Source: Albidovulum marisflavi
GTDB taxonomy: Bacteria > Pseudomonadota > Alphaproteobacteria > Rhodobacterales > Rhodobacteraceae
Direction: 5' to 3'
DNA: 64,000 nt
Assembly (NCBI RefSeq): GCF_025751435.1
Contig: NZ_JAOWKY010000002.1
Coordinates: forward strand, 124,001-188,000
Numbering within the stretch: position 1 is the stretch's first letter; each line of letters opens with the position of its first letter. Position numbers and translations under genes: made by a program. The notes under the pieces were generated by a model. That model worked only from the letters and a program-made list of their open reading frames with translations. It ran no database searches and was not told the origin of the DNA. Below are positions 31,880 through 63,836 of the stretch, one piece after another.

Positions 31880-31897
31880 ACCGAAAGCAGCCACGAC

Positions 31898-32815: not shown

Positions 32816-32820
32816 AGCCC

Positions 32821-34338: not shown

Positions 34339-34339
34339 C

Positions 34340-35239: not shown

Positions 35240-35241
35240 CA

Positions 35242-37757: not shown

Positions 37758-37793
37758 TTGACGCATGTGAACTTAATCTTGACATATGTGAAC
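37758..37793. promoter_or_regulatory. Tandem operator for the TetR regulator upstream of the StcD-like gene
   Basis: TTGACGCATGTGAAC (37758-37772) and TTGACATATGTGAAC (37779-37793) are direct repeats differing at two bases and spaced 21 bases, two helical turns. Each holds an inverted repeat (TTGACAT/ATGTGAA, one mismatch in the second copy). The second overlaps a TTGACA -35 candidate. The position between divergent tetR and target gene fits a TetR operator. Confidence 0.7.
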
Positions 37794-37832
37794 ATTTTTT
37801 GGATTTTGCGGCAGCACCAAAGGGAGGCCCCG

Positions 37833-41003: not shown

Positions 41004-41007
41004 CGGA

Positions 41008-42243
41008 TCACTCCGCAGCGACGGCAGTGCGGCCAACAAGCCGGTTCTGCAGGGTGCGGCAGTACCAGTCGACGAACTGGTTCACGCCGCTTTCCTCAAC
41101 CTGGCTGTAGGGGCCGGGCACATAGGCCGGGGTGTTGATGCCCTTCTGGTTCTCCTCGACGATGCGGCGGTCTTCGTCGTTGGTGGCGATCCAGACCTCG
41201 GTCAGGCGTTTCAGGTCGTAGTCGACCCCTTCCACCGCATCCTTGTGCACCATCCAGGTGGTCGTGACTTCGGTTTCCTCGGGGCCAAGCGGCATCACGC
41301 GGAAAGTCAGAACCTGGTCCGACAGGAAGTGATTCCAGGTGTTCGGGTAGTGGAAGTAGAGGCACGACCCGGCGTTGTCGAAGGGCACGGTGCCGACGCG
41401 CTTGGATACTGCGGCCTTGCCGTCCATCGTGTAGCTGACGCCCTCGCCCAGGAACGGGATCCGGACAAAGCGCCACTGTTCGGACGGGTCGATCACGTAT
41501 TTCGAAGGCAGACCGGCGGCCTCACACCGTTCCACATGCGCCTTGCCGATGTTGGACGAGGTTGAATCGTCGGCGCCGACCATGTTGGGATCGTCCGGGA
41601 AGGTCACGCAAAGCGCCGGGTGGTTGCCGCCGCAGTGGTAGCATTCCCGGTTGTTTTCAAGCACCAGCTTCCAGTTCGCCTTTTCGATGATCTTGGACTG
41701 GTGCGCGACCTTGAGGTTGGACAGATCATGCGGCGCGAGATAGCGCGCGGCCTGAGCCTCGAGAGCCGAGGTGTCGGGCGCGTCCTTGCCCAGGCAGATG
41801 AAGATCATGCCTTGGATCTCGCGGCAGTGGACCGAACCCAGACCGTGATCGGCGGGCTTGAAGTCCGGGCCCATTTCGCGGGCCCACAGCAGACGGCCGT
41901 CCAGTTCGTAGGTCCACTGGTGATAGGGGCAGACGAGCTTGGCGGCGGTGCCCTTTTCGGCCGAACAGATCCGGCTGCCGCGGTGACGGCACGAGTTGTG
42001 GAACGCCCGCGCGACACCGTCAGAGCCACGCACGACGATCACGGAATAGGTGCCGATCTGTACGGTGACATAGCTGCCGGTCTTGGGCAGTTCGGGGCCC
42101 GCGACGGCATAGATCCAGTCCTTGTACCAGATATTCGCCAAGTCGGCTTCATAGGCACCGGCATCGCGGTAGAAGGCTTGCGGCAACGAGTGCCACGGGC
42201 GCCGGGAGAGGAGGAGCGAGAGGACCTCGGAGTTTGACATCAT
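41008..42243 (-). CDS. Rieske non-heme iron oxygenase, betaine demethylase (Stc2/GbcA-like)
   Basis: A 411-residue oxygenase alpha subunit. The Rieske centre is complete (CRHRGSRIC start at ~85, then LVCPYHQWTYELDG), and the mononuclear iron site is in NNRECYHCGGNHP (~205). It contains the segment TWMVHKDAVEGVDYDLKRL common to quaternary-ammonium oxygenases. The phrases YTMDGKAAVS and PNTWNHFLSDQVLTFRVMP resemble the stachydrine (proline betaine) demethylase Stc2 more than Pseudomonas GbcA (recalled sequences). It removes one N-methyl group as formaldehyde. Starts at ATG 42243 or 42240. Its product would be the substrate of the convergent StcD-like enzyme. Confidence 0.9.
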   Translation of the reverse strand: MMSNSEVLSLLLSRRPWHSLPQAFYRDAGAYEADLANIWYKDWIYAVAGPELPKTGSYVTVQIGTYSVIVVRGSDGVARAFHNSCRHRGSRICSAEKGTAAKLVCPYHQWTYELDGRLLWAREMGPDFKPADHGLGSVHCREIQGMIFICLGKDAPDTSALEAQAARYLAPHDLSNLKVAHQSKIIEKANWKLVLENNRECYHCGGNHPALCVTFPDDPNMVGADDSTSSNIGKAHVERCEAAGLPSKYVIDPSEQWRFVRIPFLGEGVSYTMDGKAAVSKRVGTVPFDNAGSCLYFHYPNTWNHFLSDQVLTFRVMPLGPEETEVTTTWMVHKDAVEGVDYDLKRLTEVWIATNDEDRRIVEENQKGINTPAYVPGPYSQVEESGVNQFVDWYCRTLQNRLVGRTAVAAE

Positions 42244-42810
42244 GATAGGCGGCCTTGCACTAGAGGGGCATGTGAATCTGTCCGGGACAATGCCTTCGAC
42301 TGATGCCATTCGGAGGCCAGATTCCGCCTCATTAATGGCGAAAAATGACACGCGGCGCGGCAAACGGCCTTGCCGTGACGACGGCGCGGGGTGCGAGGCC
42401 GCTCACCGCAGCCAAAGGCGCGCCCTGCGTCCTCGGTTTGCCAGGCGCAGGCCGTCAGAGGGCACGCCCGGCCCCAAGCCCTCAAGCACGGCATGTTCTG
42501 CGGTTCGAGGGCACACGGCAGTCACCGACCACGCGGCGTTCGATCCCCCGTTTCCGGACCAATCGCTCTACCCGAACAAGCAGGGTGTGGCCCCGACAGA
42601 AGACCGGCGTGCCGACATCCTCGCAGCTCACTGGTTCGTTTCTCTTGATGTGCTGCCGTATCATCCACATGGTCCGTCCCGGCATCCATCCCGTTCTCCT
42701 TCGCCCGCCCCTGCAAGGCCTGCCCCGCGCCGAACCGACGCAAAGCACGACGGACCCTTGACAAGCACGAAAACTAAATATGATATCAGTATCAGTTTTT
42801 AGGCAACGCG
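42244..42810. other. 567-base divergent intergenic region
   Basis: The region separates the Rieske oxygenase gene from a divergent tetR. Overlapping short frames occur on both strands, but none has a ribosome site or a recognisable family. Base composition falls (AT-rich) only near 42770-42800, where a tetR operator is placed. It is long for this genome and could contain decayed coding sequence. Confidence 0.45.
42781..42794. promoter_or_regulatory. Candidate TetR operator
   Basis: TGATA (42781-42785) and TATCA (42790-42794) form a perfect inverted repeat with a 4-base spacer in an AT-rich patch 17 bases before the tetR start, fitting autoregulation of the tetR-CoA ligase-hydratase operon. 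Confidence 0.5.
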
Positions 42811-43482
42811 GTGAGCATGTCCGATTCCGACCAAGAACACTCATCGCAACCCGTGCTCCCGTCCGGCTTTGCGGACTGGCTTCAGCACGGACGCGAGGAC
42901 ATGCGCAAAGGCGAACGCACCAGGGCCGAACTGGTCACTGCCGGCGCCAACTTCCTGGCCCGTGAACCGCTTGAGCGGCTGACCGTTGCCGCGATCTGCA
43001 AATCCGCCGGGGTCGCGCACGGCACGTTCTACCTTTACTTCCCCGACAAGAACGCGCTGGCGAACGAAGTTCTTGGCGCGTTCGTCGACTATGTCCAGGG
43101 GCGCATGCGGGCCGCCGCGCACCTGCCGGGCGACGCGGCCCGCAACACCACCGCTGCCTATCTTCAGCTGTTCGAGGACAACGCGGGCCTGATGAAATGC
43201 CTTGTGGTCGGCGTGGACGCCTTTCCAGAGGCGCGCGGGGCGTTCCAGCGTCTGAACCGAGAGTGGGCCGAAACCGTCGTACGCGCCACCCGCCGCCGCG
43301 AAGGCCCCGACCGGCCACAAGATGATCTGATGCGCCGCGCCTATGCCCTGGGCGGCATGGTCGATCAGTACCTTTCCGCCCTTTTCATCACCGGAGACCC
43401 CTGGGTTAGGGCCCTGTCCGAAGATCGGGAAGCGGTGTTGGAGATGCTCACAGACCTTTGGAAACGAGGCATGGCGCCATGA
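42811..43482 (+). CDS. TetR/AcrR-family regulator
   Basis: A 223-residue regulator. After an extended N terminus (~40 residues), the HTH reads LTVAAICKSAGVAHGTFYLYF (split around residue 60-80). GTG 42811 was chosen because AGG lies seven bases upstream; ATG 42817 is the alternative. The stop overlaps the start of the CoA ligase gene (ATGA), so it is the first gene of a three-gene operon and probably controls it in response to an acyl-CoA or aromatic acid. Ligand not determinable. Confidence 0.85.
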   Translation: MSMSDSDQEHSSQPVLPSGFADWLQHGREDMRKGERTRAELVTAGANFLAREPLERLTVAAICKSAGVAHGTFYLYFPDKNALANEVLGAFVDYVQGRMRAAAHLPGDAARNTTAAYLQLFEDNAGLMKCLVVGVDAFPEARGAFQRLNREWAETVVRATRRREGPDRPQDDLMRRAYALGGMVDQYLSALFITGDPWVRALSEDREAVLEMLTDLWKRGMAP

Positions 43483-44783
43483 GCCTGATCGACAACGGAC
43501 ATCGGATTGCACTGAAAGACCTGGGCAGTCACCGCCAGGCGGCGTGGGAAAGGCAAGGCCGGTACGTCGCGTCAAATTCCGCTTTTTATCAGCGGCTTTG
43601 GCAAGGAAAGGCGCCACCCAAGCGGCTTGAGGACCTGCCGGAACTGCCGTTTTCGGACAAGTCGGATCTGCGTCTGTCGCAGCCTTCACATCCCCCCTTC
43701 GGCGACTATCTGGCTGCACCGCGCGACCGCGTCAGCCGTCTGCACCGCACCTCGGGCACCACAGGCCAGGCAATGAACCTTGCCATGAGCGCACGCGATT
43801 GCGAGATCACCGAGACCGTCGGCGGCCGGGCGCAATCGCTTGCAGGGCTGAGGCCGGGCATGATGGTCGTGCATTGCCTGAACTATCAGATGTGGATGGG
43901 CGGCCTGACAGACCACCTGACGCTGGAACGCACCGGCGCGACGGTCGTGCCCTTCGGAGTTGGCTCAACCGAACTGCTGGTGCGCACGATCCTGGAAACC
44001 GGGATCACTGCGATTTCCTGCACCCCCTCCTACCCTGCGGTCCTTGAACGGGTCGTGGCCGACAGGTTCCCCGGCCTGAAACCCGCCGACCTCGGTCTGC
44101 GGCTGGGGCTCTTCGGCGGCGAACCGGGGCTGGACGACCCCGCCTTCCGCCAGCGCTTCCGCGACACCTGGGGCATGGAGCCGCGCAATTCGAACTACGG
44201 CGTGTCCGACGTTTTCTGCAACTTCGCCGCGCAGTGCGAACACGACACGGCATTGCACTTCGTCGCCCATGATGTCCTGCATGCCGAGGTGATCCATCCC
44301 GACACCGACGCCGTCCGGCAGATCGAACCGGGCGCCGAAGGCGAACTGGTGCTGACGCATCTGGAACGGGACTGCCAGCCGCTGGTCCGCTTCCGTACCG
44401 GCGACATCATCGCCGTCGAGGCAACCGAGACCTGCCGCTGCGGCTGCGCCGGGTTCCGCTTCCGCGTCGTGGGGCGGTCGGACGACATGGTGGTCGTCCG
44501 GGGGCTGAACATGTTCCCGACCATGGTCGCGGCGGTCGTCACGAGCTTTGCCGAATTGTCGGGCGACTACCGCATCGTCCTGGACAGCCCGCCCCCCTAC
44601 GACGCGCTGCCCGTACAGGCGGAACTGGCGAAGGGCCGCGACGATGACGGTGACCTGGCCCGGCGGCTGGAAACGGCATTCAAGACCAAGCTGGGCGCAA
44701 CCGCCCGCGTGACCATCGTTCCCTCGGGCACCTTTCCTGTGACCGAAGGCAAGACCAAACGCGTGATCAGGAGCCACCCATGA
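43479..44783 (+). CDS. AMP-forming CoA ligase, phenylacetate-CoA ligase-like
   Basis: A 434-residue adenylate-forming enzyme of the PaaK type. Features: N-terminal 'YVASNSAFYQRLW', the ATP loop HRTSGTTGQAMN (~91), 'NYGVSDV' adenylation region, a CRCGCAGFRFRVVGRSDDM segment (Cys-rich, common in PaaK-like ligases), and the C-terminal hinge and lysine region (PVTEGKTKRVI). It activates a carboxylic acid, likely aryl, as a CoA thioester. It is coupled by 4-base overlaps to tetR upstream and the enoyl-CoA hydratase downstream. No oxygenase of the phenylacetate pathway is nearby, so phenylacetate itself is doubtful. Confidence 0.86.
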   Translation: MSLIDNGHRIALKDLGSHRQAAWERQGRYVASNSAFYQRLWQGKAPPKRLEDLPELPFSDKSDLRLSQPSHPPFGDYLAAPRDRVSRLHRTSGTTGQAMNLAMSARDCEITETVGGRAQSLAGLRPGMMVVHCLNYQMWMGGLTDHLTLERTGATVVPFGVGSTELLVRTILETGITAISCTPSYPAVLERVVADRFPGLKPADLGLRLGLFGGEPGLDDPAFRQRFRDTWGMEPRNSNYGVSDVFCNFAAQCEHDTALHFVAHDVLHAEVIHPDTDAVRQIEPGAEGELVLTHLERDCQPLVRFRTGDIIAVEATETCRCGCAGFRFRVVGRSDDMVVVRGLNMFPTMVAAVVTSFAELSGDYRIVLDSPPPYDALPVQAELAKGRDDDGDLARRLETAFKTKLGATARVTIVPSGTFPVTEGKTKRVIRSHP

Positions 44784-45541
44784 CCGCTTTCACCTATGAC
44801 ACGATCCTGTCCACCATGACCGGCGAAGGCGTGCGCACCATCGCGTTGAACAGGCCCAGGTCGCTGAACGCGATGAACCGCAGGCTGATCGACGAGGTGG
44901 CGCTGGCCTTCGACGATGCGAACCGCGACCCCGAAACGCGCGCAATCGTCTTTACCGGCGAGGGGCGCGCGTTTTGCGCGGGCGACGACCGGCATGAACA
45001 TGTCCACCCCGAAACCGAAGAGCAGGCGCGCGATCTGGTCGACGCGATCCAACGGGCGACGATGGCGATCGTCTTCGGCGCGAAGCCGGTGGTGGGTGCG
45101 ATCAACGGCTGGGCCGTGGGCGGCGGCTTCGAATGGGCCATCAACTGCGATTTCCCGATCTGGGCCGAAAGCGCCAAGGGGTTCTTCCCCGAAGTGTCGC
45201 TGAACCTGTTCGTGACCGGCGCGGTAACCTCGCTGCTGCCGGGCATCGTCGGCCCGGTCAAGGCGAAGGAGATGCTGTTCCTGGGTCAGCGCTACACCGC
45301 GGCCGACCTGAAGGACTGCGGCGTGGCCTGGAAGGTCGTCCCCGACGCCGATCTGCGCGACGAGGCGGGCAAGGTCGCGGCGCAGCTTGCGGCGCTTCCC
45401 ACACTCTCGGTCCGGGCGATGAAGCGCGTCCTGAACCAGGCGACGGCGGGCGGCCTTCAGCGGGCGCTGGAGCTTGAGACCGACGCGACTGTCGCGGGTT
45501 TTCTTGACCCGGAAACGACGCGCCTTCTGCAGACGTTCTGA
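44780..45541 (+). CDS. Enoyl-CoA hydratase/isomerase family protein
   Basis: A 253-residue crotonase-fold protein. N-terminal VRTIALNRPRSLNAMNRRL, CoA-binding/oxyanion segment RAFCAGDDRHEHVHP (~63) and the second oxyanion loop GWAVGGGFEWAINCDF (~107). In the catalytic region 'FFPEVSLNLFVTGAVTSLLP' one Glu is kept (PEV) and the other position is occupied by different residues, so hydratase, isomerase or hydrolase activity cannot be told apart. Its ATG overlaps the CoA ligase stop (ATGA); it likely acts on that ligase's CoA ester. Confidence 0.86.
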   Translation: MTAFTYDTILSTMTGEGVRTIALNRPRSLNAMNRRLIDEVALAFDDANRDPETRAIVFTGEGRAFCAGDDRHEHVHPETEEQARDLVDAIQRATMAIVFGAKPVVGAINGWAVGGGFEWAINCDFPIWAESAKGFFPEVSLNLFVTGAVTSLLPGIVGPVKAKEMLFLGQRYTAADLKDCGVAWKVVPDADLRDEAGKVAAQLAALPTLSVRAMKRVLNQATAGGLQRALELETDATVAGFLDPETTRLLQTF

Positions 45542-52066: not shown

Positions 52067-52933
52067 TCAGAGCAACGTGTTCCAGAATTCCAGCGCTGCC
52101 GGGCCAAGCTTGCGATCCGAACTGCAGATCATGCGCAGCTCGCGCAGGGTTTTGGGATCCGCAGGACTGACAAAGCCGGTTCCGCCGCCGATGATGGGAA
52201 CCGCGCCTTCGGGCAGGATCGTGGCGCCCAAGCCCTCCCGCACGAAGGACAGCAGCGCCGTGGTGTTGCGCGCCTCGAGGTTGCAGCCGTCCAGAAGCCC
52301 CGCGATGTCATCATGGGCGACCATCGCGCACAGCGGGTTCGCGATAAGCGGCTCCAGCCGCATCAGCGACCACGATGCCGGCCCCTCGGACTCCGCAAGA
52401 GCGCGGGCGATGCGGCCGCCTTCGCGATAGACGATTCCCAGACAGTCGGACGCGATCGTCACGCCCTCCCCCGGTTCGTCGACCGAGGCGGTCAGGATGC
52501 CGATATCCGCCTGGTCGAAGCGGATGCGCTGCCGGACGGAGTCGCTGTCGAGATCGCTGATTTCAAGACGGACCTCGGGATGCGATTCCCTGAAGCGCGC
52601 GATGGCGCCGGGCAGCAGCGTCGCGATCACCGAGGGCACGGCGGCGATGCGCACGGTACCCGCGATCGACGTCGTAAGCCGCCGGATCGTTCCGGTGCTG
52701 CTGTCGAATACGTCGGTTGCGCGCACGGCCTCGGCCAGGATCAGCTCACCCAGCTTGGTCAGCCGGTTCTTGCGGTCGGTCTCGAACAGCGGCGCACCGA
52801 TGTTGGCCTCAAGTTGCGCGAGGGTCATCGAGACTGCGGACGGTGTCCGCCCAAGCACCCCCGCCGCCTCGGCCAGCGACCCCTGCTCGGCTACGACGCG
52901 GAAGGCGCGCAGCATTTCCAGCTTGATCGCCAA
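52067..52933 (-). CDS. LysR-family regulator of the amine-catabolic operon
   Basis: A 288-residue LysR protein. The winged helix spans ~1-60 (LEMLRAFRVVAEQGSLAEAA, RTPSAVSMTLAQLEANIGAP). The effector domain starts AGTVRIAAVPSVIATLLPG. It is divergent from the aldehyde dehydrogenase gene across 89 bases that contain two near-identical operators. The first operator abuts its own start codon, which predicts autorepression. It likely activates 53023-60541 with the pathway substrate as co-inducer. Confidence 0.88.
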   Translation of the reverse strand: MAIKLEMLRAFRVVAEQGSLAEAAGVLGRTPSAVSMTLAQLEANIGAPLFETDRKNRLTKLGELILAEAVRATDVFDSSTGTIRRLTTSIAGTVRIAAVPSVIATLLPGAIARFRESHPEVRLEISDLDSDSVRQRIRFDQADIGILTASVDEPGEGVTIASDCLGIVYREGGRIARALAESEGPASWSLMRLEPLIANPLCAMVAHDDIAGLLDGCNLEARNTTALLSFVREGLGATILPEGAVPIIGGGTGFVSPADPKTLRELRMICSSDRKLGPAALEFWNTLL

Positions 52934-52979
52934 TTCAGATTTCCTGAAGGATTGTTAAGTTATTTCAGATTGCCTGAAG
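52934..52979. promoter_or_regulatory. Tandem LysR operators between lysR and aldehyde dehydrogenase gene
   Basis: TTCAGATTTCCTGAAG (52934-52949) and TTCAGATTGCCTGAAG (52964-52979) match at 15 of 16 bases and start 30 bases apart. Each is a perfect inverted repeat TTCAG-N5-CTGAA containing T-N11-A. The first begins at the base next to the LysR start codon. Confidence 0.8.
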
Positions 52980-53022
52980 CAACGTGCTGTGTCTAGGGTC
53001 CCCGAAATCACAGGAGCGCGAC

Positions 53023-54474
53023 ATGGCACAGACGAACGGCCTTTTCATTGCAGGCGAATGGCAGGACGGCGCGGCGGTCATCGAGAACCGCAACCCCTCT
53101 GATCTGTCCGACATCATCGGTGAATACGCCCAGGCCGACAGCTCCCAACTGGACGCGGCGCTGGCCGCGGCGCGCAAGGCGCAGCCGGTCTGGTGGGCGG
53201 CGGGCGTCCAGAAGCGGCACGACGTGCTGATGGCGATCGGGACCGAACTGATGGCGCGCGCCGAAGAGATCGGCCGCCTGCTGTCGCGCGAAGAGGGAAA
53301 GCCCCTGGCCGAAGGCAAGGGCGAGGTCTACCGCGCCGGCCAGTTCTTCACCTATTTCGCGGCCGAGGCGCTGCGCCTTCACGGCGACCTGGCGGAAAGC
53401 GTTCGCCCGGGGATCGAAATCGACGTCCGGCGCGAACCGGTGGGCGTCGTCGCGATCGTCTCGCCCTGGAACTTCCCGGTCGCTACGCCCGCGTGGAAGA
53501 TCGCGCCAGCCCTTGCCTTCGGGAACGCCTTGGTCTGGAAACCCGCGAACCTGACGCCGGCCAGCGCGGTTGCCCTGACCGAGGTCATCGCAAGGCAGGA
53601 CATTCCGGCGGGCCTGTTCAACCTGGTGACCGGACCGGGCCGGGCCGTGGGTCAGCGGCTGGTCGAAAGCCGCGAGATCGACGCGATCAGCTTTACCGGC
53701 TCGGTCTCGGTCGGGCGCGGCATCGCGGCCAGCGCGGTCGCCAACATGACCAAGGTCCAGATGGAGATGGGGTCGAAGAACCCCATGCTGATCATGGACG
53801 ACGCCGATCTGGACCTGGCCGTGGCCCATGCCGCCAACGCGGCCTTCGGCGGCACGGGGCAGAAATGTACCGCCGCCTCGCGCCTGATTGTGCACGAGGC
53901 CGTGCATGACGCCTTTGTCGAAAAACTGGTGGCCGCCGCGCAGGCGCTAAAGGTCGGTCACGCGCTTGAGGCGGGCACGCAGATCGGGCCCGCGGTGTCG
54001 GGCGAGCAGCTGGCCCAGAACCTTGACTACGTGGCCATCGGCAAGTCGGAAGGGGCAGAGCTTCTGTGCGGCGGCGACCGGCTGGAGCGGCCGACCGAGG
54101 GATACTACATGGCCCCCGCCGTCTTCGCGGGAACGCGCAACGACATGCGCATCAACCGCGAAGAGATGTTCGCCCCCATCACCTGCGTGATCAAGGCAGG
54201 CAGCTATGACGAGGCTCTGGGCATCGCCAATGACAGCGAATTCGGACTGACCGCCGGCATCATGACCCGCTCGCTTGCGCGGGCCAGCCACTTCCGCGCC
54301 CACATGCGCGCGGGCTGCGTCATGGTGAACCTGCCGACGGCGGGAACGGACTACCACGTTCCCTTCGGCGGGCGCGGCGCATCGTCCTTCGGGCCGCGCG
54401 AACAGGGCCGCTACGCCGCCGAGTTCTATACGACGGTCAAGACGGCCTATGTTTCGGCGGGGTTGCCGGAATGA
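53023..54474 (+). CDS. NAD(P)-dependent aldehyde dehydrogenase
   Basis: A 483-residue aldehyde dehydrogenase with start at ATG 53023 (CAGGAG seven bases upstream). Cofactor segment VAIVSPWNFPVATPAWKIAP (~146), 'VWKPANLTPASA', 'SFTGSVSVGRGIA', general base in MEMGSKNPML (~248) and nucleophile Cys in GTGQKCTAAS (~282). The C terminus (HVPFGGRGASSFGPREQG) resembles the semialdehyde dehydrogenases KGSADH/GabD-like. First gene of the operon under the tandem LysR operators; it overlaps the next gene by four bases. Probably oxidises an aldehyde released when the amine is cleaved. Confidence 0.9.
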   Translation: MAQTNGLFIAGEWQDGAAVIENRNPSDLSDIIGEYAQADSSQLDAALAAARKAQPVWWAAGVQKRHDVLMAIGTELMARAEEIGRLLSREEGKPLAEGKGEVYRAGQFFTYFAAEALRLHGDLAESVRPGIEIDVRREPVGVVAIVSPWNFPVATPAWKIAPALAFGNALVWKPANLTPASAVALTEVIARQDIPAGLFNLVTGPGRAVGQRLVESREIDAISFTGSVSVGRGIAASAVANMTKVQMEMGSKNPMLIMDDADLDLAVAHAANAAFGGTGQKCTAASRLIVHEAVHDAFVEKLVAAAQALKVGHALEAGTQIGPAVSGEQLAQNLDYVAIGKSEGAELLCGGDRLERPTEGYYMAPAVFAGTRNDMRINREEMFAPITCVIKAGSYDEALGIANDSEFGLTAGIMTRSLARASHFRAHMRAGCVMVNLPTAGTDYHVPFGGRGASSFGPREQGRYAAEFYTTVKTAYVSAGLPE

Positions 54475-55484
54475 CCCCGCTTATCGACGGCCTTCAATAC
54501 GCCAACTGGTCCGAGAAGATCTTTCGCCAGATGCGCGAAGGCGGCGTGAACGCTGTCCACGTCACCATCACCTATCACGAAAACTTCCGCGAGACGGTCC
54601 TGAACATCGAGCGTTGGAACCGCTGGTTCGAGCGGTTTCCCGACCTGATCTTCCAAGGCAGGACGGCGGCCGATGTGACCCTTGCGCGCGAAACGGGCCG
54701 CACCGCGATCTTCTTCGGCTCGCAGAACCCGTCGTGCATCGAGGATGACATCGGCCTCGTCGAGGTGTTGCACACCCTTGGCCTGCGCTTCATGCAGCTG
54801 ACCTACAACAACCAGTCCCTTCTGGCTTCGGGCTGCTACGAGGCCGACGACGCCGGCCTGACCCGGATGGGGCGCGAAGTCGTGGCCGAGATGAACCGCG
54901 TGGGCCTTGTGGTCGACATGAGCCATTCCGGCGAACGCTCCACGCTTGAGGCGATCGAACATTCGACCCGTCCGATCGCGATCACCCACGCCAACCCGGC
55001 TGGCTGGCACTCCGCGCTTCGCAACAAGTCCGAAAACGTCCTGCGCGCGCTGGCCGAAAGCGGCGGAATGCTGGGCTTTTCGGTCTATCCCCACCACCTG
55101 CGCGGTGGCAGCGCCTGCACCCTTCGGGACTTCTGCGAAATGATCGCGCGGACCGCCGACCTGATGGGGATCGACCAGGTCGGCATCGGCACCGATCTGT
55201 GCCAGGACCAGCCCGACAGCGTCGTCGAATGGATGCGCGTCGGTCGCTGGACCAAGACCATCGACTACGGCGAGGGGAGCAAGGATGCGCCGGGCTTCCC
55301 GCCGATGCCTGACTGGTTCGCGGACAACCGCAACTTCGGCAAGATCGCGGATGGCTTGCAAGCCACCGGCATGGCCGACGCGGATGTCGCCGCCGTGATG
55401 GGGGGCAACTGGCTGCGCTTTTTCGACAAGAGCTTCGGCGCGAACAAAGGTCCCGAAGGCAGGCTCAGCGAAGCCGCAGACTGA
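54471..55484 (+). CDS. M19-like (membrane dipeptidase family) protein with degenerate metal site
   Basis: A 337-residue TIM-barrel amidohydrolase-like protein. The usual HxD metal motif is replaced: the N terminus reads PLIDGLQYANW where M19 enzymes have 'IDGHND'. The Glu of the bridging 'EGG' is also missing (FFGSQNPSCIEDD), while the later histidines remain (VVDMSHSGE ~150 and ITHANPAG ~170). The site can hold at most one metal in the normal way. From memory, P. aeruginosa has a similar 'dipeptidase' directly beside dgcAB of glycine betaine catabolism, suggesting the group works on betaine metabolism rather than dipeptides. It overlaps the aldehyde dehydrogenase gene by ATGA. Confidence 0.8.
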   Translation: MTPLIDGLQYANWSEKIFRQMREGGVNAVHVTITYHENFRETVLNIERWNRWFERFPDLIFQGRTAADVTLARETGRTAIFFGSQNPSCIEDDIGLVEVLHTLGLRFMQLTYNNQSLLASGCYEADDAGLTRMGREVVAEMNRVGLVVDMSHSGERSTLEAIEHSTRPIAITHANPAGWHSALRNKSENVLRALAESGGMLGFSVYPHHLRGGSACTLRDFCEMIARTADLMGIDQVGIGTDLCQDQPDSVVEWMRVGRWTKTIDYGEGSKDAPGFPPMPDWFADNRNFGKIADGLQATGMADADVAAVMGGNWLRFFDKSFGANKGPEGRLSEAAD

Positions 55485-55529
55485 CTGCAAAAGGGCACGG
55501 AAACACCCATCTAGCAGGACGGGGGCAAG

Positions 55530-57077
55530 ATGACAGACATCACGGCAAGCCAGTGCGGACGATCGCGCCTGGCAGGTTTGGACAAGCCACTTCTTGCTGT
55601 GACGGGTGGATTCATCCTGCTCTTCTGCGGCATGGCGCTTGTCAGCATGGACAGCCTTACGGCGATGGTCGACTGGGGCTTCAATTTCGCCGCCACCTAC
55701 TTCGGGCTCTACTGGCAGGTTCTGCTTCTGGCGACCTTCCTCATCGGACTTGCCATCTGCCTGCTGCCGGGAAGCCGGGCCGTTCTGGGCACGCTGGACA
55801 AGCCGGAATTCAGCACGTTCCAGTGGGCCTCGATGATCATGTGCACGCTGCTGGCCGGCGGCGGCGTCTTCTGGGCGGCGGGTGAGCCCATCGCGCACTA
55901 TCTTTGGACACCTCCGCTTTTCGGTGACCTTTCGGCCGATCCGGCCGCGCGCGCCAACGCCGCGCTCGCGCAGGCATACCTGCACTGGGGCTTCCTTGCC
56001 TGGGCGATCCTTGGCGCGCTGACCACGATCATGCTGATGCACTATCACTACGACAAGGGGCTGCCGCTTGCACCGCGCACGCTGCTCTACCCCGTGTTCG
56101 GTGATCGCGCGCTCAAGGGCCCCATCGGCCTGATCGCCGACGCGTCCTGCATCATCGCCGTCGTCGCCGGCACCGTTGGCCCCATCGGTTTCCTTGGCCT
56201 GCAGATGTCCTACGGGCTGAACGCGCTTTTCGGCATCCCCGACAGCTTCGCGACCCAGGCCGTCGTGATCCTGGCGCTTGTCGGAATCTACACGATCTCT
56301 GCGATTTCCGGTCTTGAACGGGGCATCCAGTTCCTGTCGAAGGCGAACGTCATCCTTGCCTTCGCCCTGCTGGCATTCATGCTGGTCGTCGGATCCACCG
56401 CCTTCATCTTCAAGAGCTTTCTTGGCGGGCTTGGCACCTATCTGTCCAACTTCTTCTCGATGTCGATGTACCGCGGCGAGGCCGGGATCTTCGGAGAGCC
56501 GGGGTGGCTGGGATGGTGGACGGTCTTCTTCTGGGGCTGGTTCCTGGGCTACGGGCCGCTGATGGCGATCTTCATCGCGCGTGTCAGTCGTGGCCGTTCG
56601 ATCCGCTCGATCATCATCATGCTGTCCATCGTGGCGCCGCTGATCACGAACTTCTGGTTCACCATCATCGGAGGATCGGGCATCGCGCTGGAGCAGGCGA
56701 CGGCCGGTGTCATCTCGGCACCGTTCGAAGGCTTCAACCTGCCTGCGGGCCTTCTGGCCATCACCCAGGCGATGCCGATGGGCTTCATCCTGTCGCTTCT
56801 CTTCCTTGTCCTGACCATGATTTTCGTGGCCACGACCAGCGACTCGATGAGCTTTGTCATCGCGACGGCAATGTCCGACGACAACCCGTCGGCCCCGCTG
56901 CGGGCGTTCTGGGGTCTTGCCATGGGCGTCATGGCGCTGATCCTGATCTCGACAGACGCGGGCGGGATCGGCAAGCTTCAGAGCTTCATCGTGGTGACCG
57001 CGGTGCCGGTATCGCTCGTGCTTCTGCCGTCCCTGTGGGATGCTGCACGCATCACCTTGGCATTGGGACGGAAATAG
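55530..57077 (+). CDS. BCCT family transporter (betaine/carnitine/choline type)
   Basis: A 515-residue transporter with about 12 membrane helices. The family core is visible in 'MIMCTLLAGGGVFWAAGEPIAHY' (~110), 'AQAYLHWGFLAWAILGAL' (~150), the signature-like 'WWTVFFWGWFLGYGPLMAIF' (~328) with 'IARVSRGRSIRSI' following, and 'FVATTSDSMSF' (~432). The two Trp-rich segments make the aromatic substrate cage for quaternary ammonium groups. The BCCT C-terminal osmosensing extension is absent, so a catabolic role is more likely than an osmotic one. It is the transporter of the operon 53023-60541. Confidence 0.92.
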   Translation: MTDITASQCGRSRLAGLDKPLLAVTGGFILLFCGMALVSMDSLTAMVDWGFNFAATYFGLYWQVLLLATFLIGLAICLLPGSRAVLGTLDKPEFSTFQWASMIMCTLLAGGGVFWAAGEPIAHYLWTPPLFGDLSADPAARANAALAQAYLHWGFLAWAILGALTTIMLMHYHYDKGLPLAPRTLLYPVFGDRALKGPIGLIADASCIIAVVAGTVGPIGFLGLQMSYGLNALFGIPDSFATQAVVILALVGIYTISAISGLERGIQFLSKANVILAFALLAFMLVVGSTAFIFKSFLGGLGTYLSNFFSMSMYRGEAGIFGEPGWLGWWTVFFWGWFLGYGPLMAIFIARVSRGRSIRSIIIMLSIVAPLITNFWFTIIGGSGIALEQATAGVISAPFEGFNLPAGLLAITQAMPMGFILSLLFLVLTMIFVATTSDSMSFVIATAMSDDNPSAPLRAFWGLAMGVMALILISTDAGGIGKLQSFIVVTAVPVSLVLLPSLWDAARITLALGRK

Positions 57078-57084
57078 CTGCTGC

Positions 57085-57113
57085 TGCCGGGCGTGTTCTG
57101 CACATGCCCGGCA
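57085..57113 (+). promoter_or_regulatory. Hairpin after the BCCT gene
   Basis: TGCCGGGC (57085-57092) and GCCCGGCA (57106-57113) form a perfect 8-bp stem eight bases after the BCCT stop. No T-run follows; it may be a partial terminator or mRNA stabiliser inside the operon. Confidence 0.45.
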
Positions 57114-57142
57114 CCCAACCGAAACAGAAAGGGGCTTGACCC

Positions 57143-58822
57143 ATGACCGACGCGTCCCTTCCTTTGGCCCAGCATGACCTGAAAGTCGGCCTGCGGGCGC
57201 CCGAAACCGTCATGCGGCTGGCCCGCATGGGATCGGCGCATCCCACGCGGCTGTCCTTCCTGCGCGTGCTTCTTCGCAGGGTACGGGATGAGGGCTGGCG
57301 CTTTGACCGCCCGGTTTGGGACGTCGACGCCAAGGGCGTGGGGCGCGCCGTCTACCGCGCGATCGGGCCCGCCAGGACATACAGCCTGGTGGCCTTTTCG
57401 CACGACCTGCCCGATCACATGCGCTCAGACCGGGTGATCGCCACGGCCTGGGACGCCACCTTCGCCCTGTTCGATGGTACGCCGACGACACAGGATCTGG
57501 ACCGCCTGCAGAGGAACGTGCCCCTGCAAGAGGCCGGCCGCGTCTCGGCGCGAGAACTTTCGCTGAGCCGCGCCAACCGTTCGGTGCGGCTCTGGGCGCA
57601 TGTGGTGGACAGCCTGGCGGCGGGGCACCAGCCGGAGATGTCGGAAATCGACGCCGTCGGCTACCTGATGCGCACGACCGCGGTCTATGGTTCGGGCAAG
57701 TTCGGCGCCGCCGACCGGCGCGAGATCGCGGAGCGCCCGGAACTGCACGGCCCCTTCCAGGCCGAGATGCTGTCGGTCTGGCTGACCCGGCAGTTCACGG
57801 TGGACATCGTAGAACATCTGGCTGCCGCGAAGGGCGGCGAACGCGCCGTTCGACTGTCTGACCAGATCAAGCGCCGCCTTGGCGTCGGCAACTCCACGGG
57901 TCTTGGCATGGCGCCTTTCCTGGTGCGCCACCCGATGCTGATGAACAACTGGATGGCCATGCGGGAAACGGCGCTGGCCCGTGTCCGTGCTTTGGCCGAC
58001 GCAACGCCCGACGCCGTCGCGGCCCTGCACCTGGCCTACACCGCGGCCTGCGATAACGCCGACAGCTGGCGTTCCGAACATCCGATCCAGATCGCCAAGC
58101 TGCAGGACCTGCGCCGCGACCTTGCGCGGATCGGCGAGCGGTTGGGCTCCTTCCCCGACGAAGAGGCGCTTCCGTGGGACGCGCTCTGGCGATGGGGTGA
58201 AAGGCAGCTGACGCTCGAAGGGCAGGAAATGCTGTTCGCCCTTCTGATCGAGCCGCACGGCGCCGTCGTGGACAACCTGGCGCAAGGGATGAGCGCGGAC
58301 GAACATGTGGCCTTCACGCTGGACGGCGCAATGAAGGTCGGGACCCTCCAGGCCATATTCCGCGACCGCTACGGCTGGGCGCTGAGCATCGACTTTCAGC
58401 CGGCCGAGGCCCAGGCCCGCTTCTGGTACGTGTCCGAAGAGAAGCTTGAACCCCGGCTGGGCGAACGTGCAAGCGAGGAAGGAGCGGAGCTTGAGCAGCC
58501 GCTGTGCATCGCGCGCCTTGCCAAGGAGCTTTACGCGGATCTGTCGGCCTGGCCGGCTACCGAAACGGTCGCGGCCTTTCTGCTGCGCCACCCCGAACAT
58601 CGCTACATGGCGCGGCGCGCGCAGATCGCCGCCGACCATCCCTATGCCGAGGTTCAGGACAACCTGATCGCCAAGGACATGCTGCCCATCGACCTGATGC
58701 GCTGCAAGCTCGCGTTCTTCGGCGCAAGCCACTTCGACCCCAGGTCCGACAAGTGGGTGCGTATAAGCCTGTTTCAGGGCGCGCCCTACCCGCTCGACAT
58801 GCAAGGGAAGGGCAGGCCATGA
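57143..58822 (+). CDS. Protein of unknown function (559 residues)
   Basis: I do not recognise a family. ATG 57143 is preceded by AAAGGGG. The product is soluble, without signal peptide or membrane helix. Residues 1-300 are predicted mostly helical with many charged pairs (LRVLLRRVRDEGWRFDRPVW, LDRLQRNVPLQEAGRVSARE). The C terminus (DLMRCKLAFFGASHFDPRSD, KWVRISLFQGAPYPLD) looks like a structured end. No metal or nucleotide motif is obvious. It overlaps the DUF3726 gene by ATGA and lies in the BCCT operon, so the two are probably used together. It may be an enzyme of the pathway or a binding partner of the DUF3726 protein. Confidence 0.75.
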   Translation: MTDASLPLAQHDLKVGLRAPETVMRLARMGSAHPTRLSFLRVLLRRVRDEGWRFDRPVWDVDAKGVGRAVYRAIGPARTYSLVAFSHDLPDHMRSDRVIATAWDATFALFDGTPTTQDLDRLQRNVPLQEAGRVSARELSLSRANRSVRLWAHVVDSLAAGHQPEMSEIDAVGYLMRTTAVYGSGKFGAADRREIAERPELHGPFQAEMLSVWLTRQFTVDIVEHLAAAKGGERAVRLSDQIKRRLGVGNSTGLGMAPFLVRHPMLMNNWMAMRETALARVRALADATPDAVAALHLAYTAACDNADSWRSEHPIQIAKLQDLRRDLARIGERLGSFPDEEALPWDALWRWGERQLTLEGQEMLFALLIEPHGAVVDNLAQGMSADEHVAFTLDGAMKVGTLQAIFRDRYGWALSIDFQPAEAQARFWYVSEEKLEPRLGERASEEGAELEQPLCIARLAKELYADLSAWPATETVAAFLLRHPEHRYMARRAQIAADHPYAEVQDNLIAKDMLPIDLMRCKLAFFGASHFDPRSDKWVRISLFQGAPYPLDMQGKGRP

Positions 58823-59529
58823 CAACAGAACCCAATGACCCGACCGCCTCGGGGTCTTCGTTCGCCGACGCGCCCACCTTCCTCGTCCTCTCGCGCAACG
58901 AGATCGAGAGCCTGAGCACCAAGGCCGCCCGCGGCGCAGGGATGAGCTGGGGCCAGGCCGAGGAAGCCGGCTTTGCGGCCGGCTGGCTTCACGAACACGG
59001 CGTCGACGGGTCGGCGGCGCTTCTGGCGCAACTGGAGAGCGCGGCGGGCAAGCCCTGGCACGATGTCTGCCCGATCGTCGGCCCTAGACATTGGCGGCAG
59101 CAGGGCGAAGGGCCGCTATGCCCCATCGCCGTCGGCGCGGCGCTAAGCGACTTTGTCGATCTGCCCGAAGGGTCGCTGTCCCAAGGCTTGAAGATCGCGG
59201 ACGTAAGTCGGCCCGTGCTTCTGGTGCCCTTTCTGTCGCGCATCGCAGAGCGGCATGGCCAGCGCATCGCGTTGACCTTTCCCGGTGGGGCCGTCGGCGT
59301 CGACGGCACAGGTGCGATCACCGGCGATCTGGGCTGCTTCACCGGCCTGTCCGCTGCCACCCTGACGCTCGAATTGCTGGAGGGTGCAGCCGATGCGGAA
59401 TCGAGGGGACCGGCGGGCTGCGAAAGCCCGGTTCTGTCCAGGCTTAACGACCTGGCGATGAAGACCACGGTTCCCCCGTCCGACCGATCGCGGGCGGATG
59501 CGGGCGCCGGAACAAGCGACAATGACTGA
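58819..59529 (+). CDS. DUF3726-like protein
   Basis: A 236-residue soluble protein. It contains LSRNEIESLSTKAARGAGM and WGQAEEAGFAAGWLHEHGVD, as in DUF3726 proteins that occur near Ldh_2-type dehydrogenases in Rhodobacterales (recollection). The N-terminal ~20 and C-terminal ~35 residues look disordered. No catalytic motif stands out. It overlaps the 559-residue gene by four bases and is followed by the dehydrogenase gene 16 bases later, indicating a conserved functional unit. The role is unknown. Confidence 0.72.
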   Translation: MTTEPNDPTASGSSFADAPTFLVLSRNEIESLSTKAARGAGMSWGQAEEAGFAAGWLHEHGVDGSAALLAQLESAAGKPWHDVCPIVGPRHWRQQGEGPLCPIAVGAALSDFVDLPEGSLSQGLKIADVSRPVLLVPFLSRIAERHGQRIALTFPGGAVGVDGTGAITGDLGCFTGLSAATLTLELLEGAADAESRGPAGCESPVLSRLNDLAMKTTVPPSDRSRADAGAGTSDND

Positions 59530-59545
59530 CGGAAAAGAGGCCAGC

Positions 59546-60541
59546 ATGCGGATAGGCATCGACGACATCGCGCGGATGAGCGAACAGGCCCTGCTGGCCC
59601 ATGGCGCGGGCGCGTGGCAGGCAAGCGAGGTCGCGCGCGCGGTCGCCCGGGCCGAGGAAACCGGCAACGTGATCTGCGGTCTCTACTACCTGGAAAGCTA
59701 CTGCCGGCAGCTCGTGTCGGGCCGGGTCGATGGCCGGGTCGAGCCAGTCGTTACCCTGCCCCGCCCCGGCGCCGTCACGGTGGATGCAAGGTTCGGTTTC
59801 GCGCAGCCCGCGTTTTCGCGCGGCCTTCAGCCCGCGATCGAGGCGGCGCGGGCCTGCGGCATCGCGAGCCTTGCGGTCTGCCATTCGCACACCTGCACCT
59901 CGCTTGGCTATTTCACGGAACAGATCGCCGCCAAGGGGTTGATCGCGATCGGGGTCACCAATGCCTCGGCCATCGTTGCCGGACCTGGCGGCAAGCGCCC
60001 GGTGATCGGCACCAACCCTATCGCCTTCACGATCCCCGGCCCGGACGGGATCGCGATGCATGCCGATTTTTCGACGGCGGCAGTCGCATTGGGCAAGATC
60101 ACCAAGGCGCAGGCGGCGGGCGAACGCATCCCGCTGGGTTGGGCGGTGGACCGGAACGGAAAGCCCACGACCGACCCGGCCGAGGCGCTATCAGGCTCGT
60201 TGGTGAGCGCGGCGGACTACAAGGGCTGGGCGCTTGGTCTTCTGGTCGAGTTCCTGGCGGCCGGGCTGACCGGGTCGGTCAATTCGCTTGACGTCAAAGG
60301 ACTCAAGGCCGAGGCCGGTCCGCCCCACGACCTTGGGCAATTCTACATCCTCATCGACCCAGACACCCATGCCGCGTCCCTGGCCGAGCGCATAAGCCGC
60401 GTTGCCGAAGCGGTGGCCGACGATCCGGGCGTGCGCATCCCCGGCAAACAGCGCACCCGGCTCGATGCGGTCGAGGTCGCGCCCGCGCTTTGGCAGCTTG
60501 TGCAGCAACTGGCCAAGGCCGGGACGACAGCCGCCGGCTGA
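59546..60541 (+). CDS. Ldh_2 family (malate/L-lactate dehydrogenase-like) oxidoreductase
   Basis: A 331-residue NAD(P)H-dependent dehydrogenase of the LDH2/MDH2 family, which is unrelated to Rossmann-fold lactate dehydrogenases. The catalytic His is in VCHSHTCTSLGYF (~112), with 'GVTNASAIVAGPGG' and the cofactor region 'PVIGTNPIAFTIPG' following. ATG 59546 is preferred for the AGAGG ribosome site; ATG 59522 is in frame. Members reduce 2-oxo acids or cyclic imines such as Delta1-pyrroline-2-carboxylate and Delta1-piperideine-2-carboxylate. An imine or keto acid produced by amine oxidation would fit here, but is not proven. Last gene of the plus-strand operon. Confidence 0.88.
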   Translation: MRIGIDDIARMSEQALLAHGAGAWQASEVARAVARAEETGNVICGLYYLESYCRQLVSGRVDGRVEPVVTLPRPGAVTVDARFGFAQPAFSRGLQPAIEAARACGIASLAVCHSHTCTSLGYFTEQIAAKGLIAIGVTNASAIVAGPGGKRPVIGTNPIAFTIPGPDGIAMHADFSTAAVALGKITKAQAAGERIPLGWAVDRNGKPTTDPAEALSGSLVSAADYKGWALGLLVEFLAAGLTGSVNSLDVKGLKAEAGPPHDLGQFYILIDPDTHAASLAERISRVAEAVADDPGVRIPGKQRTRLDAVEVAPALWQLVQQLAKAGTTAAG

Positions 60542-61766: not shown

Positions 61767-63836
61767 CTAGTCCGCCGCCAGTTCGGCCAGTTCGCGGCGG
61801 AACGGAAGATCGTCGCCGATATCGGGTTCGTCCAGCTCGCGCGCGTAGCGGTGGCCCGCGTAGGTGGCCCATGCGATCGGTCCGGGCGCCGCGGCGTCGC
61901 CGATCAGCCTGACCGTCCGGATGCCGCCGTCGGCCCAGTCCGCCTGCCGCGCCGCCAGCGCGTGGTAAAGCCCGTCGTTCGGGTGGCGGGCCGCCACCAC
62001 GACCACCGCATCGCAGCCCGTCAAGTCGCGCCGATCGGTGTAGGTGCAGTTCGTTTCGACGCCGTCCGGACGGATCGCCGTCACGCCGCGGTTCAGCACG
62101 ATCGTCACGCCCGCCCCGGCCAACCGCACGTGGATCGCGTGCTGCTCCAGCGTGTTGCGCGCCCAATCTGACACATAGGGCGCCGGCGTGATCAGCGTGA
62201 CTTCGCACCCTTTTCCTGCCAGAAGCTCTGCCACGACCCCACCCATGTAGTAGTGATCGTCGTCATAGACGACCACCCGACCACTGGGCACGCGCCCCTC
62301 CATGATGTCGTCTGGGGTGAAGACCGGCATCGCCGGGTCCATGGGCATCGGCACCACATGCTGCCGGCCGACCCCGTCGGCGCGCCAGGACGCGCCGGTG
62401 ACGATGCAGACATTCTCGAATCCGAACTCAAGGATCTGCGCCGCGTCCAGCGGGGATCCGATATAGGTTTCGACGTTGGGCCGCTGGGACAGCTGGTACT
62501 GCCTGTAGTCGACCACCCTGCCCCAGGCCGACAGCCCCGGCAGAAGCCGTTCGCGCGCGACGCGGCCGCCGATCTGATCGCGCGCCTCCGCGATGGCGAC
62601 GTCGTAGCCCCTGAGCGACAGCGCGCGGGCGGCCTCAAGCCCGGCGGGCCCGGAGCCCACGACCAGCACATTCGCGCTGCCGCCCTTGGCGTTCATCCGT
62701 TCGGGATGCCAGCCCTTGCGCCACTCTTCCATGAAGGTCGGGTTCTGTGTGCACCGGCTGATCGACATGGTCATGTCGCCCGTGATGCATATGTTGCAGC
62801 CGATGCATTCCCGGATGTCCTCGACCCTTCCCTCCTCGACCTTCCTCGGCAGGAACGGGTCCGCGATCGAGGGGCGCGCGCAACCGATGAAGTCAAGCGT
62901 GCCCTGCCGGATCATCCGCGCCATGACATCGGGCGAGGTGAAGCGGCCGACACCCACCACGGGCTTGTCCGTCAGGTCCCTGATGCCCCTGACCAATGCC
63001 TCTTGCGCGGCTTCCTCCTTGAAGCGCGATGGGCCTGAGCAATCCTCCCAGGTCCCTTGCGCAAGGTCCCAGAGGTCGGGCAGGTCGCGGTTCATCTCGA
63101 TGAAGTCGCGGACCTCGGCGTTGGAAAACCCCAGTTCGCCGATGCTTTCGTCCAGCGACACGCGCAGCGTCAGCGCCATCGTGTCACCCACCGCGTCGCG
63201 CATGTCCGCGATCACTTCCCGCGCGAAGCGGGACCGGTTTTCCAGGCTGCCGCCGTATTCATCGCCCCTCTGGTTCGTCGCGCGCGACAGAAAGTGCTGG
63301 AAGATGCCGAAGCCGTGCGCGCCATAAAGGCAGATCAGGTCGAACCCGGCCGCCTTCGACCGCCTGGCCGCGTTCACGAACCAACGCCGCAGGTTGCGGA
63401 TGTCGGCCTTGTCCATCGCGCGCGCCTGCACGGGATCGTTCGTGAAGGTTCGGATCGGCAGCGCAGTCGGCGCCAGAGGCACCTCCTTGGTGTAGAGGTT
63501 CGAACCATTGATGCCGGAATAGGCAAGCTGGATCCCGGCAAGCGCGCCATGCGACTTCATCGCCGCGGACATCTTGCGCAGCGCGGGGATGTCCTTGTCA
63601 TCCCAAAGGCGCAGCTCGATGAACGGCGTGATCTCGGACGTGTGGTGCATCTCGGTCTGTTCAGTGAAGATCACGCCCCAGCCGCCTTCGGCCTTGATCC
63701 CCCGCATCGCGGCGGCTGCCGATGGGTCGCGATAACCGCCGCCATTGCAATGTGGCACCTGGTAGAACCGGTTCTTCGCGCGAAGCGGACCGATCGCCAA
63801 AGGCTCGAACAGGATATCGTAACGGGGGTCGCGCAA
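61767..63836 (-). CDS. Trimethylamine/dimethylamine dehydrogenase-like flavoprotein with altered substrate pocket
   Basis: A 689-residue protein matching trimethylamine dehydrogenase over its length: YDILFEPLAIGPLRAKNRFY, the covalent-flavin segment FYQVPHCNGG (its Cys is the 6-S-cysteinyl-FMN ligand in TMADH), YGAHGFG (Tyr and His of the catalytic triad), and EDCSGPSR near the triad Asp. The [4Fe-4S] site is complete (CIGCNICI...CTQNP). The second half has the nucleotide-binding fold (VLVVGSGPAGLEAARALSLR). In TMADH the substrate cage includes Tyr60; here the aligned residue is Gln (FTEQTEMHH), so trimethylamine is unlikely to be the best substrate. No etf genes are adjacent. Residue numbering is by remembered alignment. 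Confidence 0.86.
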   Translation of the reverse strand: MRDPRYDILFEPLAIGPLRAKNRFYQVPHCNGGGYRDPSAAAAMRGIKAEGGWGVIFTEQTEMHHTSEITPFIELRLWDDKDIPALRKMSAAMKSHGALAGIQLAYSGINGSNLYTKEVPLAPTALPIRTFTNDPVQARAMDKADIRNLRRWFVNAARRSKAAGFDLICLYGAHGFGIFQHFLSRATNQRGDEYGGSLENRSRFAREVIADMRDAVGDTMALTLRVSLDESIGELGFSNAEVRDFIEMNRDLPDLWDLAQGTWEDCSGPSRFKEEAAQEALVRGIRDLTDKPVVGVGRFTSPDVMARMIRQGTLDFIGCARPSIADPFLPRKVEEGRVEDIRECIGCNICITGDMTMSISRCTQNPTFMEEWRKGWHPERMNAKGGSANVLVVGSGPAGLEAARALSLRGYDVAIAEARDQIGGRVARERLLPGLSAWGRVVDYRQYQLSQRPNVETYIGSPLDAAQILEFGFENVCIVTGASWRADGVGRQHVVPMPMDPAMPVFTPDDIMEGRVPSGRVVVYDDDHYYMGGVVAELLAGKGCEVTLITPAPYVSDWARNTLEQHAIHVRLAGAGVTIVLNRGVTAIRPDGVETNCTYTDRRDLTGCDAVVVVAARHPNDGLYHALAARQADWADGGIRTVRLIGDAAAPGPIAWATYAGHRYARELDEPDIGDDLPFRRELAELAAD

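Follow-up and report, generated by a model that had tools for sequence, protein, structure and literature searches.

Trigonelline is catabolised in Acinetobacter by the products of tgnABCD: the ring of the N-methylpyridine carboxylate is opened, the resulting aldehyde is oxidised by an aldehyde dehydrogenase (ALDH) and the remaining formamide is hydrolysed, tgnAB encoding a flavin-dependent two-component monooxygenase. Marine algae use homarine (N-methylpicolinate) and related betaines as osmolytes, which bacteria break down, contributing in this way to carbon and nitrogen cycling in the sea. A multi-gene homarine operon, homABCDER, which includes a regulator gene and occurs in Rhodobacterales, SAR11 and SAR116, was reportedly described by Ferrer-Gonzalez et al. 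(2026, Nat Microbiol 11:1531); its products are said to convert homarine to N-methylglutamate and glutamate. Here we analysed a stretch of 64,000 nucleotides from Albidovulum marisflavi (contig NZ_JAOWKY010000002.1), referred to as the window, in which an operon with a betaine-type transporter contains two overlapping genes encoding a 559-residue protein (P559) and a DUF3726 protein. Unlike in the Acinetobacter system, no tgnAB-like flavin-dependent monooxygenase gene was found in this operon. The two proteins form a near-obligate unit, of which one part has no matched fold and the other a shortened dehydrogenase fold. They are encoded as follows:

57143–58822, + strand: P559, 559 residues, proposed catalytic subunit; no Pfam, NCBIfam or PHROGs match; AlphaFold2 model with a predicted local distance difference test score (pLDDT) of 92.7 and a predicted template modelling score (pTM) of 0.92
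58819–59529, + strand: DUF3726 protein, 236 residues, partner with a shortened Ldh2 fold; Pfam PF12525 at E = 2.8e-20 over residues 24–87; AlphaFold2 model with pLDDT 92.1 and pTM 0.86

Pairing of P559 and DUF3726

The ATG start codon of the DUF3726 gene at 58819 overlaps the stop of the P559 gene, so that both open reading frames (ORFs) share the bases ATGA, exactly as the original prediction had read them. From this tight coupling it had proposed a complex or consecutive steps, a proposal for which near-constant adjacency, co-occurrence and natural fusions in related sequences are good support. Phylogenetic co-occurrence, suggested as a check, was assessed in 385 genomes of the host's class, the Alphaproteobacteria. 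P559 was present in 54 and DUF3726 in 43 of these; all 43 genomes with DUF3726 also encoded P559, and all 43 DUF3726 places were located at most 2.5 kb from it (Fisher p = 4e-47, shared descent not corrected for). None of 14 control genomes contained DUF3726. Eleven P559 genomes gave no Pfam-level match to DUF3726; a partner ORF or a fusion was read downstream in six of them (G057, G084, G122, G258, G310 and G373), four showed partial or weak matches, and G338 had no partner next to P559.

The scan of relatives in species genomes took the best 80 of 385 stretches encoding a P559 relative. The locus set comprised 156 loci with a P559 match, from which 134 distinct ones, including the host, were kept. 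Direct reading revealed the partner in 128 of the 130 loci with enough downstream sequence. A strict motif for the DUF3726 tail was passed by 119 of these 130 loci; among the eleven misses, eight have a modified form of this tail, L152 was missed owing to an insertion in its P559 gene, and L139 and L141 are real exceptions, the P559 of L141 being fused to a divergent domain. A downstream ORF of 131–299 residues was called in 127 of the 134 distinct loci, with an overlap of −4 in 79 and of −1 in 13 of them, and the other seven are four fusions, two loci ended by the end of the contig (L025, L109) and L139. The translational coupling of P559 and DUF3726 is not due to chance. Natural fusions of both proteins into one polypeptide of about 766–775 residues occur in L056, L069, L071 and L088, which belong to three Marivivens and one Rhodobacteraceae assembly, and the DUF3726 part was confirmed by Pfam in L056. 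P559 and the DUF3726 protein are thus very likely obligate partners.

The divergent L141 protein (L141:8050–10656) combines a distant P559 homologue with about 300 further residues, the start of which looks DUF3726-like by eye without a significant Pfam match; its single Pfam match was at chance level (0.16).

Within the host's genus, P559 was found in 14 of 22 genomes, counting the host itself; a sample of 398 genomes of its phylum yielded 29 with P559, nine of them outside the class. It is also encoded on Vibrio and Pseudomonas plasmids, and its carriers include genomes of 1.2–1.4 Mb (G030, G207, G259 and G297). Two genomes, G154 and G252 (loci L128 and L133), contain two P559 copies each with differing neighbours, which suggests modules for different substrates.

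P559 has no matched family or fold

No domain had been recognised in the 559-residue protein by the original prediction, and this holds down to the fold level as far as searched. Profile searches, which had been proposed for both proteins, assigned the DUF3726 protein to PF12525 and returned nothing for P559, neither in Pfam at E up to 1 nor in PHROGs; NCBIfam gave no match at E up to 0.1 for either protein. Comparison of P559 with PDB sequences by phmmer and profile yielded chance matches only, and five divergent members of the family had no Pfam match at E up to 1. The AlphaFold model, built from an alignment of 95 rows, found no convincing counterpart by Foldseek in the PDB (best E 0.53, prob 0.05) or among viral models (best E 0.28), nor by VIA (best Z 4.0 over 129 residues, 798 chains), where rows naming NAT10, JetC and argininosuccinate lyase were taken as chance. 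These searches used the whole 559-residue model, and single domains of a long chain can escape them. Judged from its model, P559 would therefore be described as a protein for which no known fold was found, as distinct from one with a new fold. An ordinary annotated enzyme was rejected, as nothing strong appeared in family libraries, PDB sequences, Foldseek or VIA, and a relationship to Ldh2 was likewise rejected (hhalign probability 0.1).

An alignment of 100 sequences, the most distant of them 27% identical to the window protein, revealed 28 invariant columns including eight arginines (R97, R133, R177, R216, R438, R492, R520 and R540), one aspartate (D104), two glutamates (E362 and E436), Q163, Y174 and N250, as well as W428 and S431. 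P559 looks like an enzyme because of these 28 columns and in particular the eight arginines. The view that both proteins lack obvious catalytic motifs is therefore valid for P559 with respect to known motifs, but neither its enzyme-like conservation nor the known enzyme fold of DUF3726 agrees with it. No histidine or cysteine is invariant in the 100 sequences, two histidines being kept in 94 and 99 of the 100 rows, and a classical iron-dependent ring-cleaving dioxygenase is unsupported as no conserved His/Cys set was found. One homologue (L152:7519–9630) has a long in-frame insertion between the conserved parts, a low-complexity stretch of repeats with many Asn, Asp and Gly residues.

The DUF3726 protein is a shortened Ldh2 fold

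The first 27 Foldseek rows obtained with the DUF3726 model are all type-2 malate/lactate dehydrogenases (Ldh2), with a best E value of 7e-4 at probability 1.0 and four rows below 0.001. With VIA, 27 of the 997 chains compared reached Z ≥ 8; all 15 entries listed with such a score are Ldh2 enzymes (Z 10.3–13.2, root-mean-square deviation 3.3–3.7 Å over 165–190 residues), and the next row has Z 4.4. The aligned residues cover nearly the whole span of the listed Ldh2 chains, which comprise 313–361 residues. At the sequence level, the first 56 columns of the DUF3726 profile resemble the Ldh2 N-terminus (hhalign E 2.6e-4, probability 43%), the full-length profile alignment being unreliable beyond this N-terminal part. 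The Ldh2 family PF02615 was not among the Pfam matches at E up to 1, and searches of PDB sequences by phmmer and profile gave chance matches only.

The DUF3726 protein and the Ldh2 family thus share a fold but differ in two respects. With 236 residues the former is about 100 residues shorter than the listed chains, and for this reason part of the nucleotide-binding region was probably lost. In addition, it has a conserved C-terminal tail with the consensus SRxxGAGAGxxDND. In an alignment of 76 rows, which leaves out the most distant partners, E28 is present in all 76, P132 in 75 and D111 in 74 rows; within the tail, A228 and G229 are found in all 76, S224 in 71, D234 in 70 and D236 in 69. The original prediction had named a well-known enzyme fold with full active site as the result of structure prediction that would refute its reading; for DUF3726 structure prediction gave a known enzyme fold about 100 residues shorter than its relatives, which does not refute the reading in the terms set.

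Organisation of the operon

The pair is located between a transporter and a dehydrogenase, as had been stated, and the operon reaches further than the interval considered at first, including genes for a LysR-type regulator, an ALDH and a relative of M19 peptidases. The divergently oriented LysR gene is followed by ALDH, altered M19, BCCT, P559, DUF3726 and a DpkA-like reductase:

52067–52933, − strand: LysR-type regulator, divergent from the operon; Pfam HTH_1 at 9e-16 and LysR_substrate at 3.6e-24
53023–54474, + strand: ALDH; Pfam Aldedh at 6.1e-157
54471–55484, + strand: relative of M19 'membrane dipeptidase' with altered metal site; Pfam Peptidase_M19 (PF01244) at 3.9e-72
55530–57077, + strand: BCCT-family betaine/carnitine/choline transporter; Pfam BCCT at 2.8e-145
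about 59546–60541, + strand: Ldh2-family dehydrogenase, nearest solved relative DpkA; Pfam Ldh_2 at 1.4e-78

The ALDH ORF opens at a GTG at 52984, and the ATG at 53023 is preceded by AGGAG. The M19 gene overlaps the ALDH gene by four bases.

The M19 protein is clearly homologous to membrane dipeptidases, the nearest being the amidohydrolase 2i5g of Pseudomonas aeruginosa (2.2e-62). The canonical binuclear metal site of M19 enzymes comprises five ligands, His-x-Asp, Glu, His and His. The window protein differs by L8, Q9 and Q85 at three of these ligand positions, of which the His-x-Asp place was judged from the alignment to 2i5g, itself without His-x-Asp, and Q85 faces a glutamate in the alignment to 3id7. 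Leu, Gln and Gln occur at these positions in 116–118 of 118 aligned sequences, H152 and H173 in all 118, and the full set of five ligands was not found in this alignment. An ordinary dipeptidase is unlikely because of these replacements.

In contrast to the shortened DUF3726 protein, the product of 59546–60541 is a true Ldh2 enzyme. Its nearest solved relative is 1wtj, the delta1-piperideine-2-carboxylate reductase DpkA, with an E value of 1.7e-44 by single sequence and of 3.2e-96 by profile, where the next best match has 2.4e-68. PMC8070496 describes the use of DpkA in making N-methyl amino acids by reductive methylamination.

Neighbourhood across relatives

Gene neighbourhoods were counted in 99 distinct loci with enough flanking sequence, ALDH and M19 within 6.5 kb of P559 and LysR within 8 kb, centre to centre. 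M19 was found near P559 in 94, ALDH in 67, LysR in 59, BCCT in 48 and LDH2 in 21 of these loci. Grouped by identity to the window P559, the counts are as follows:

at least 60% identity (58 loci): M19 57, ALDH 53, BCCT 42, LDH2 8
50–60% identity (19 loci): M19 17, ALDH 9, BCCT 5, LDH2 9
40–50% identity (17 loci): M19 16, ALDH 5, BCCT 1, LDH2 4
below 40% identity (5 loci): M19 4, ALDH 0, BCCT 0, LDH2 0

The operon core recurs in Rhodobacterales, and the reductase gene is often not nearby. The gene order is identical on the megaplasmid of Ruegeria sp. TM1040 and, as far as DUF3726, on the 262-kb plasmid of Phaeobacter inhibens. In P. inhibens DSM 17395 (L032:10318–11390), two separate Ldh2 pieces follow DUF3726 and no dehydrogenase is annotated; perhaps this is a broken gene. 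Other arrangements surround the pair in Aminobacter and Pseudomonas sp. MPC6. RidA genes, the products of which act on enamines, are found in L033, L034 and L036 at a distance of up to about 10 kb from the pair.

Genes of the soxBDAG/mgdABCD type were identified near the operon in six loci with at least 42% identity (L031, the source of the query, L032, L043, L132, L137 and L146); weaker soxA matches of 26–33% (L045, L095, L124, L131, L135, L153 and L154) were left out of this count. The host has an orthologous set elsewhere in its genome, with a large subunit 68% identical and the same convergent regulator gene (54%).

Several further gene groups of the window were noted outside the operon. 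The region 39930–42363 (− strand) encodes a subunit of a Rieske ring-hydroxylating oxygenase together with the ferredoxin/flavin reductase that belongs to it, a layout similar to that of carnitine or glycine-betaine oxygenases. Flavin oxidoreductases of the old-yellow-enzyme type that include a pyridine-nucleotide part are encoded twice (37758–39869, + strand, and 61767–63836, − strand) and are like trimethylamine- or stachydrine-type demethylases. A sugar-acid catabolism set with dehydratase, 2-keto-3-deoxygalactonokinase and KDPG/KHG-type aldolase occupies 29205–35853, and at 43458–45541 an enoyl-CoA hydratase gene is overlapped by an AMP-binding CoA ligase-like gene.

Substrate of the operon

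Betaine-type uptake is indicated by BCCT in the window and by OpuAC-type glycine-betaine ABC transport genes, which accompany the pair in L126 and L129 and are also annotated beside it in Aminobacter L035. Among the few loci in which flanking transporter genes were scanned, two unrelated types of betaine transporter thus lie beside the same core, which can be regarded as good evidence for the substrate class. It is highly likely that the operon functions in betaine catabolism, and homarine is a probable, if less certain, substrate.

The distribution of P559, including genomes of 1.2–1.4 Mb, a size typical of SAR11, fits the reported spread of the hom operon, and the window operon is probably the one reported for homarine in 2026 and would be a member of that recently published pathway. 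This bears on the suggestion that the two proteins may be the real novelty of the cluster, which holds only in part if the operon has already been described.

PMC13390433 assigns Mgd a part in homarine catabolism and cites Ferrer-Gonzalez et al. Ruegeria pomeroyi draws down homarine within 10 h according to PMC12817926, and PMC9723723 states that no homarine transporter is confirmed in this organism. Our literature searches returned nothing on DUF3726 or PF12525 nor on homarine transporter or uptake, and the search on homarine and trigonelline genes gave no further paper beyond PMC13390433.

Proposed pathway

We propose that the operon at 52067–60541, under control of LysR, serves to take up and break down a ring betaine with an N-methyl group, in all likelihood homarine rather than another such compound; for this reading as a whole we consider the balance about even. 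P559 and the DUF3726 protein would be two subunits of one enzyme. The latter would be a former Ldh2 dehydrogenase, too short for the whole Ldh2 nucleotide-binding region, which may now serve as scaffold of P559 or lend it its conserved C-terminal tail. Ring opening, the entry step, might be carried out by this complex, an assignment we make with some reservation. The ALDH would oxidise the aldehyde made by ring opening, the altered M19 enzyme would hydrolyse the remaining formamide-like C–N bond of the N-formyl group, and the DpkA-like reductase would reduce the N-methyl imine formed in this way, giving an N-methyl amino acid, e.g. N-methylglutamate, from which a dehydrogenase of the mgdABCD/soxBDAG type would produce glutamate. 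The conversion of homarine to N-methylglutamate loses one ring carbon, which suits C5–C6 cleavage followed by ALDH oxidation, N-formyl hydrolysis by the M19 enzyme and imine reduction by the Ldh2 enzyme.

Several results weigh against this proposal. The pair was assigned to ring opening because the remaining steps of the operon were assigned to other genes, and this elimination is the weakest link since a gene outside the operon could open the ring and many other members have no ALDH or LDH2 gene nearby. The 100 P559 rows show no visible conserved site for iron or heme, which argues against an ordinary ring-cleaving dioxygenase. ALDH, BCCT and LDH2 accompany the pair in only 67, 48 and 21 of the 99 loci; below 50% identity (22 loci) ALDH is found in five and BCCT in one, and LDH2 is near in only eight of 58 loci even at 60% identity or more. 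Therefore, the pair is a module that is probably used for further substrates as well, and the reductase activity may come from elsewhere. Genes of the soxBDAG/mgd type were not detected in the other loci searched, and the heterotetrameric neighbour genes fit N-methylglutamate dehydrogenase or sarcosine oxidase alike. As to the pairing itself, L139 lacks a DUF3726 gene next to P559, and PF12525 does not match the distant partners of P559 from L140 and L142. Finally, that the window operon is the homarine operon of 2026 is no more than probable.

Alternatively, the same operon and obligate pair could act on another betaine, such as trigonelline, stachydrine, N-methyl-pipecolate or a carnitine-like compound, with homarine use carried elsewhere. 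BCCT and OpuA transporters indicate the betaine class only, genes for a Rieske oxygenase, an ALDH and an FAD oxidoreductase are found near the pair in Pseudomonas sp. MPC6 and in Phaeobacter, and an SBP_bac_8-type transporter by the divergent Sinorhizobium copy (L033) together with the second copies in G154 and G252 makes substrate diversity likely. We nevertheless regard this as unlikely for the window operon, as the soxBDAG/mgd-type linkage in six loci, the imine reductase and the marine distribution fit the route from homarine to N-methylglutamate better.

Rather unlikely in our view is a catalytic but non-oxidative pair, which would add water to the pyridinium ring without O2, metal or flavin and form an aldehyde resembling N-methylaminomuconate semialdehyde, to be oxidised by ALDH. 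P559 shows no motif that could be recognised as one for metal, heme or flavin, the length of DUF3726 is insufficient for the whole Ldh2 nucleotide-binding region, and an ALDH gene is present in the operon, all of which agrees with such a hydration. Aminomuconate semialdehyde cyclises spontaneously to picolinate, which is the reverse of this step and supports the chemistry. Against hydration, the equilibrium lies on the ring side. Moreover, all six carbons would stay in a C6 acid, and to reach N-methylglutamate with its C5 chain another carbon would have to be lost, unless N-methylglutamate arises from released methylamine. An accessory, chaperone or regulatory role of the pair, e.g. in the assembly or gating of the M19 or the Ldh2 enzyme, is improbable even though a shortened Ldh2 fold is typical of pseudo-enzyme partners and 94 of 99 loci have M19 in the vicinity, because the 28 invariant columns of P559 are typical of an active site, the five remaining loci show no M19 match near the pair, and no other gene able to attack the ring is constant around it.

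Returning to the ring-opening complex, we put forward tentatively that P559 and DUF3726 could represent a new kind of two-part ring-opening enzyme, consisting of a catalytic subunit without known fold and an Ldh2-derived partner, which together with the altered M19 enzyme would be a portable module across Proteobacteria for several N-methylated ring compounds. Under the same reserve, the partner would have had an NAD(P)-dependent ancestor, lost part of the cofactor-binding region and gained the conserved C-terminal tail. If this is true, the first step of betaine breakdown would rest on an enzyme family without Pfam or NCBIfam match or matched fold; the pair would be a marker gene for the pathway and a target for new pyridine-ring chemistry, and it would give an example of a dehydrogenase fold turned partner subunit.

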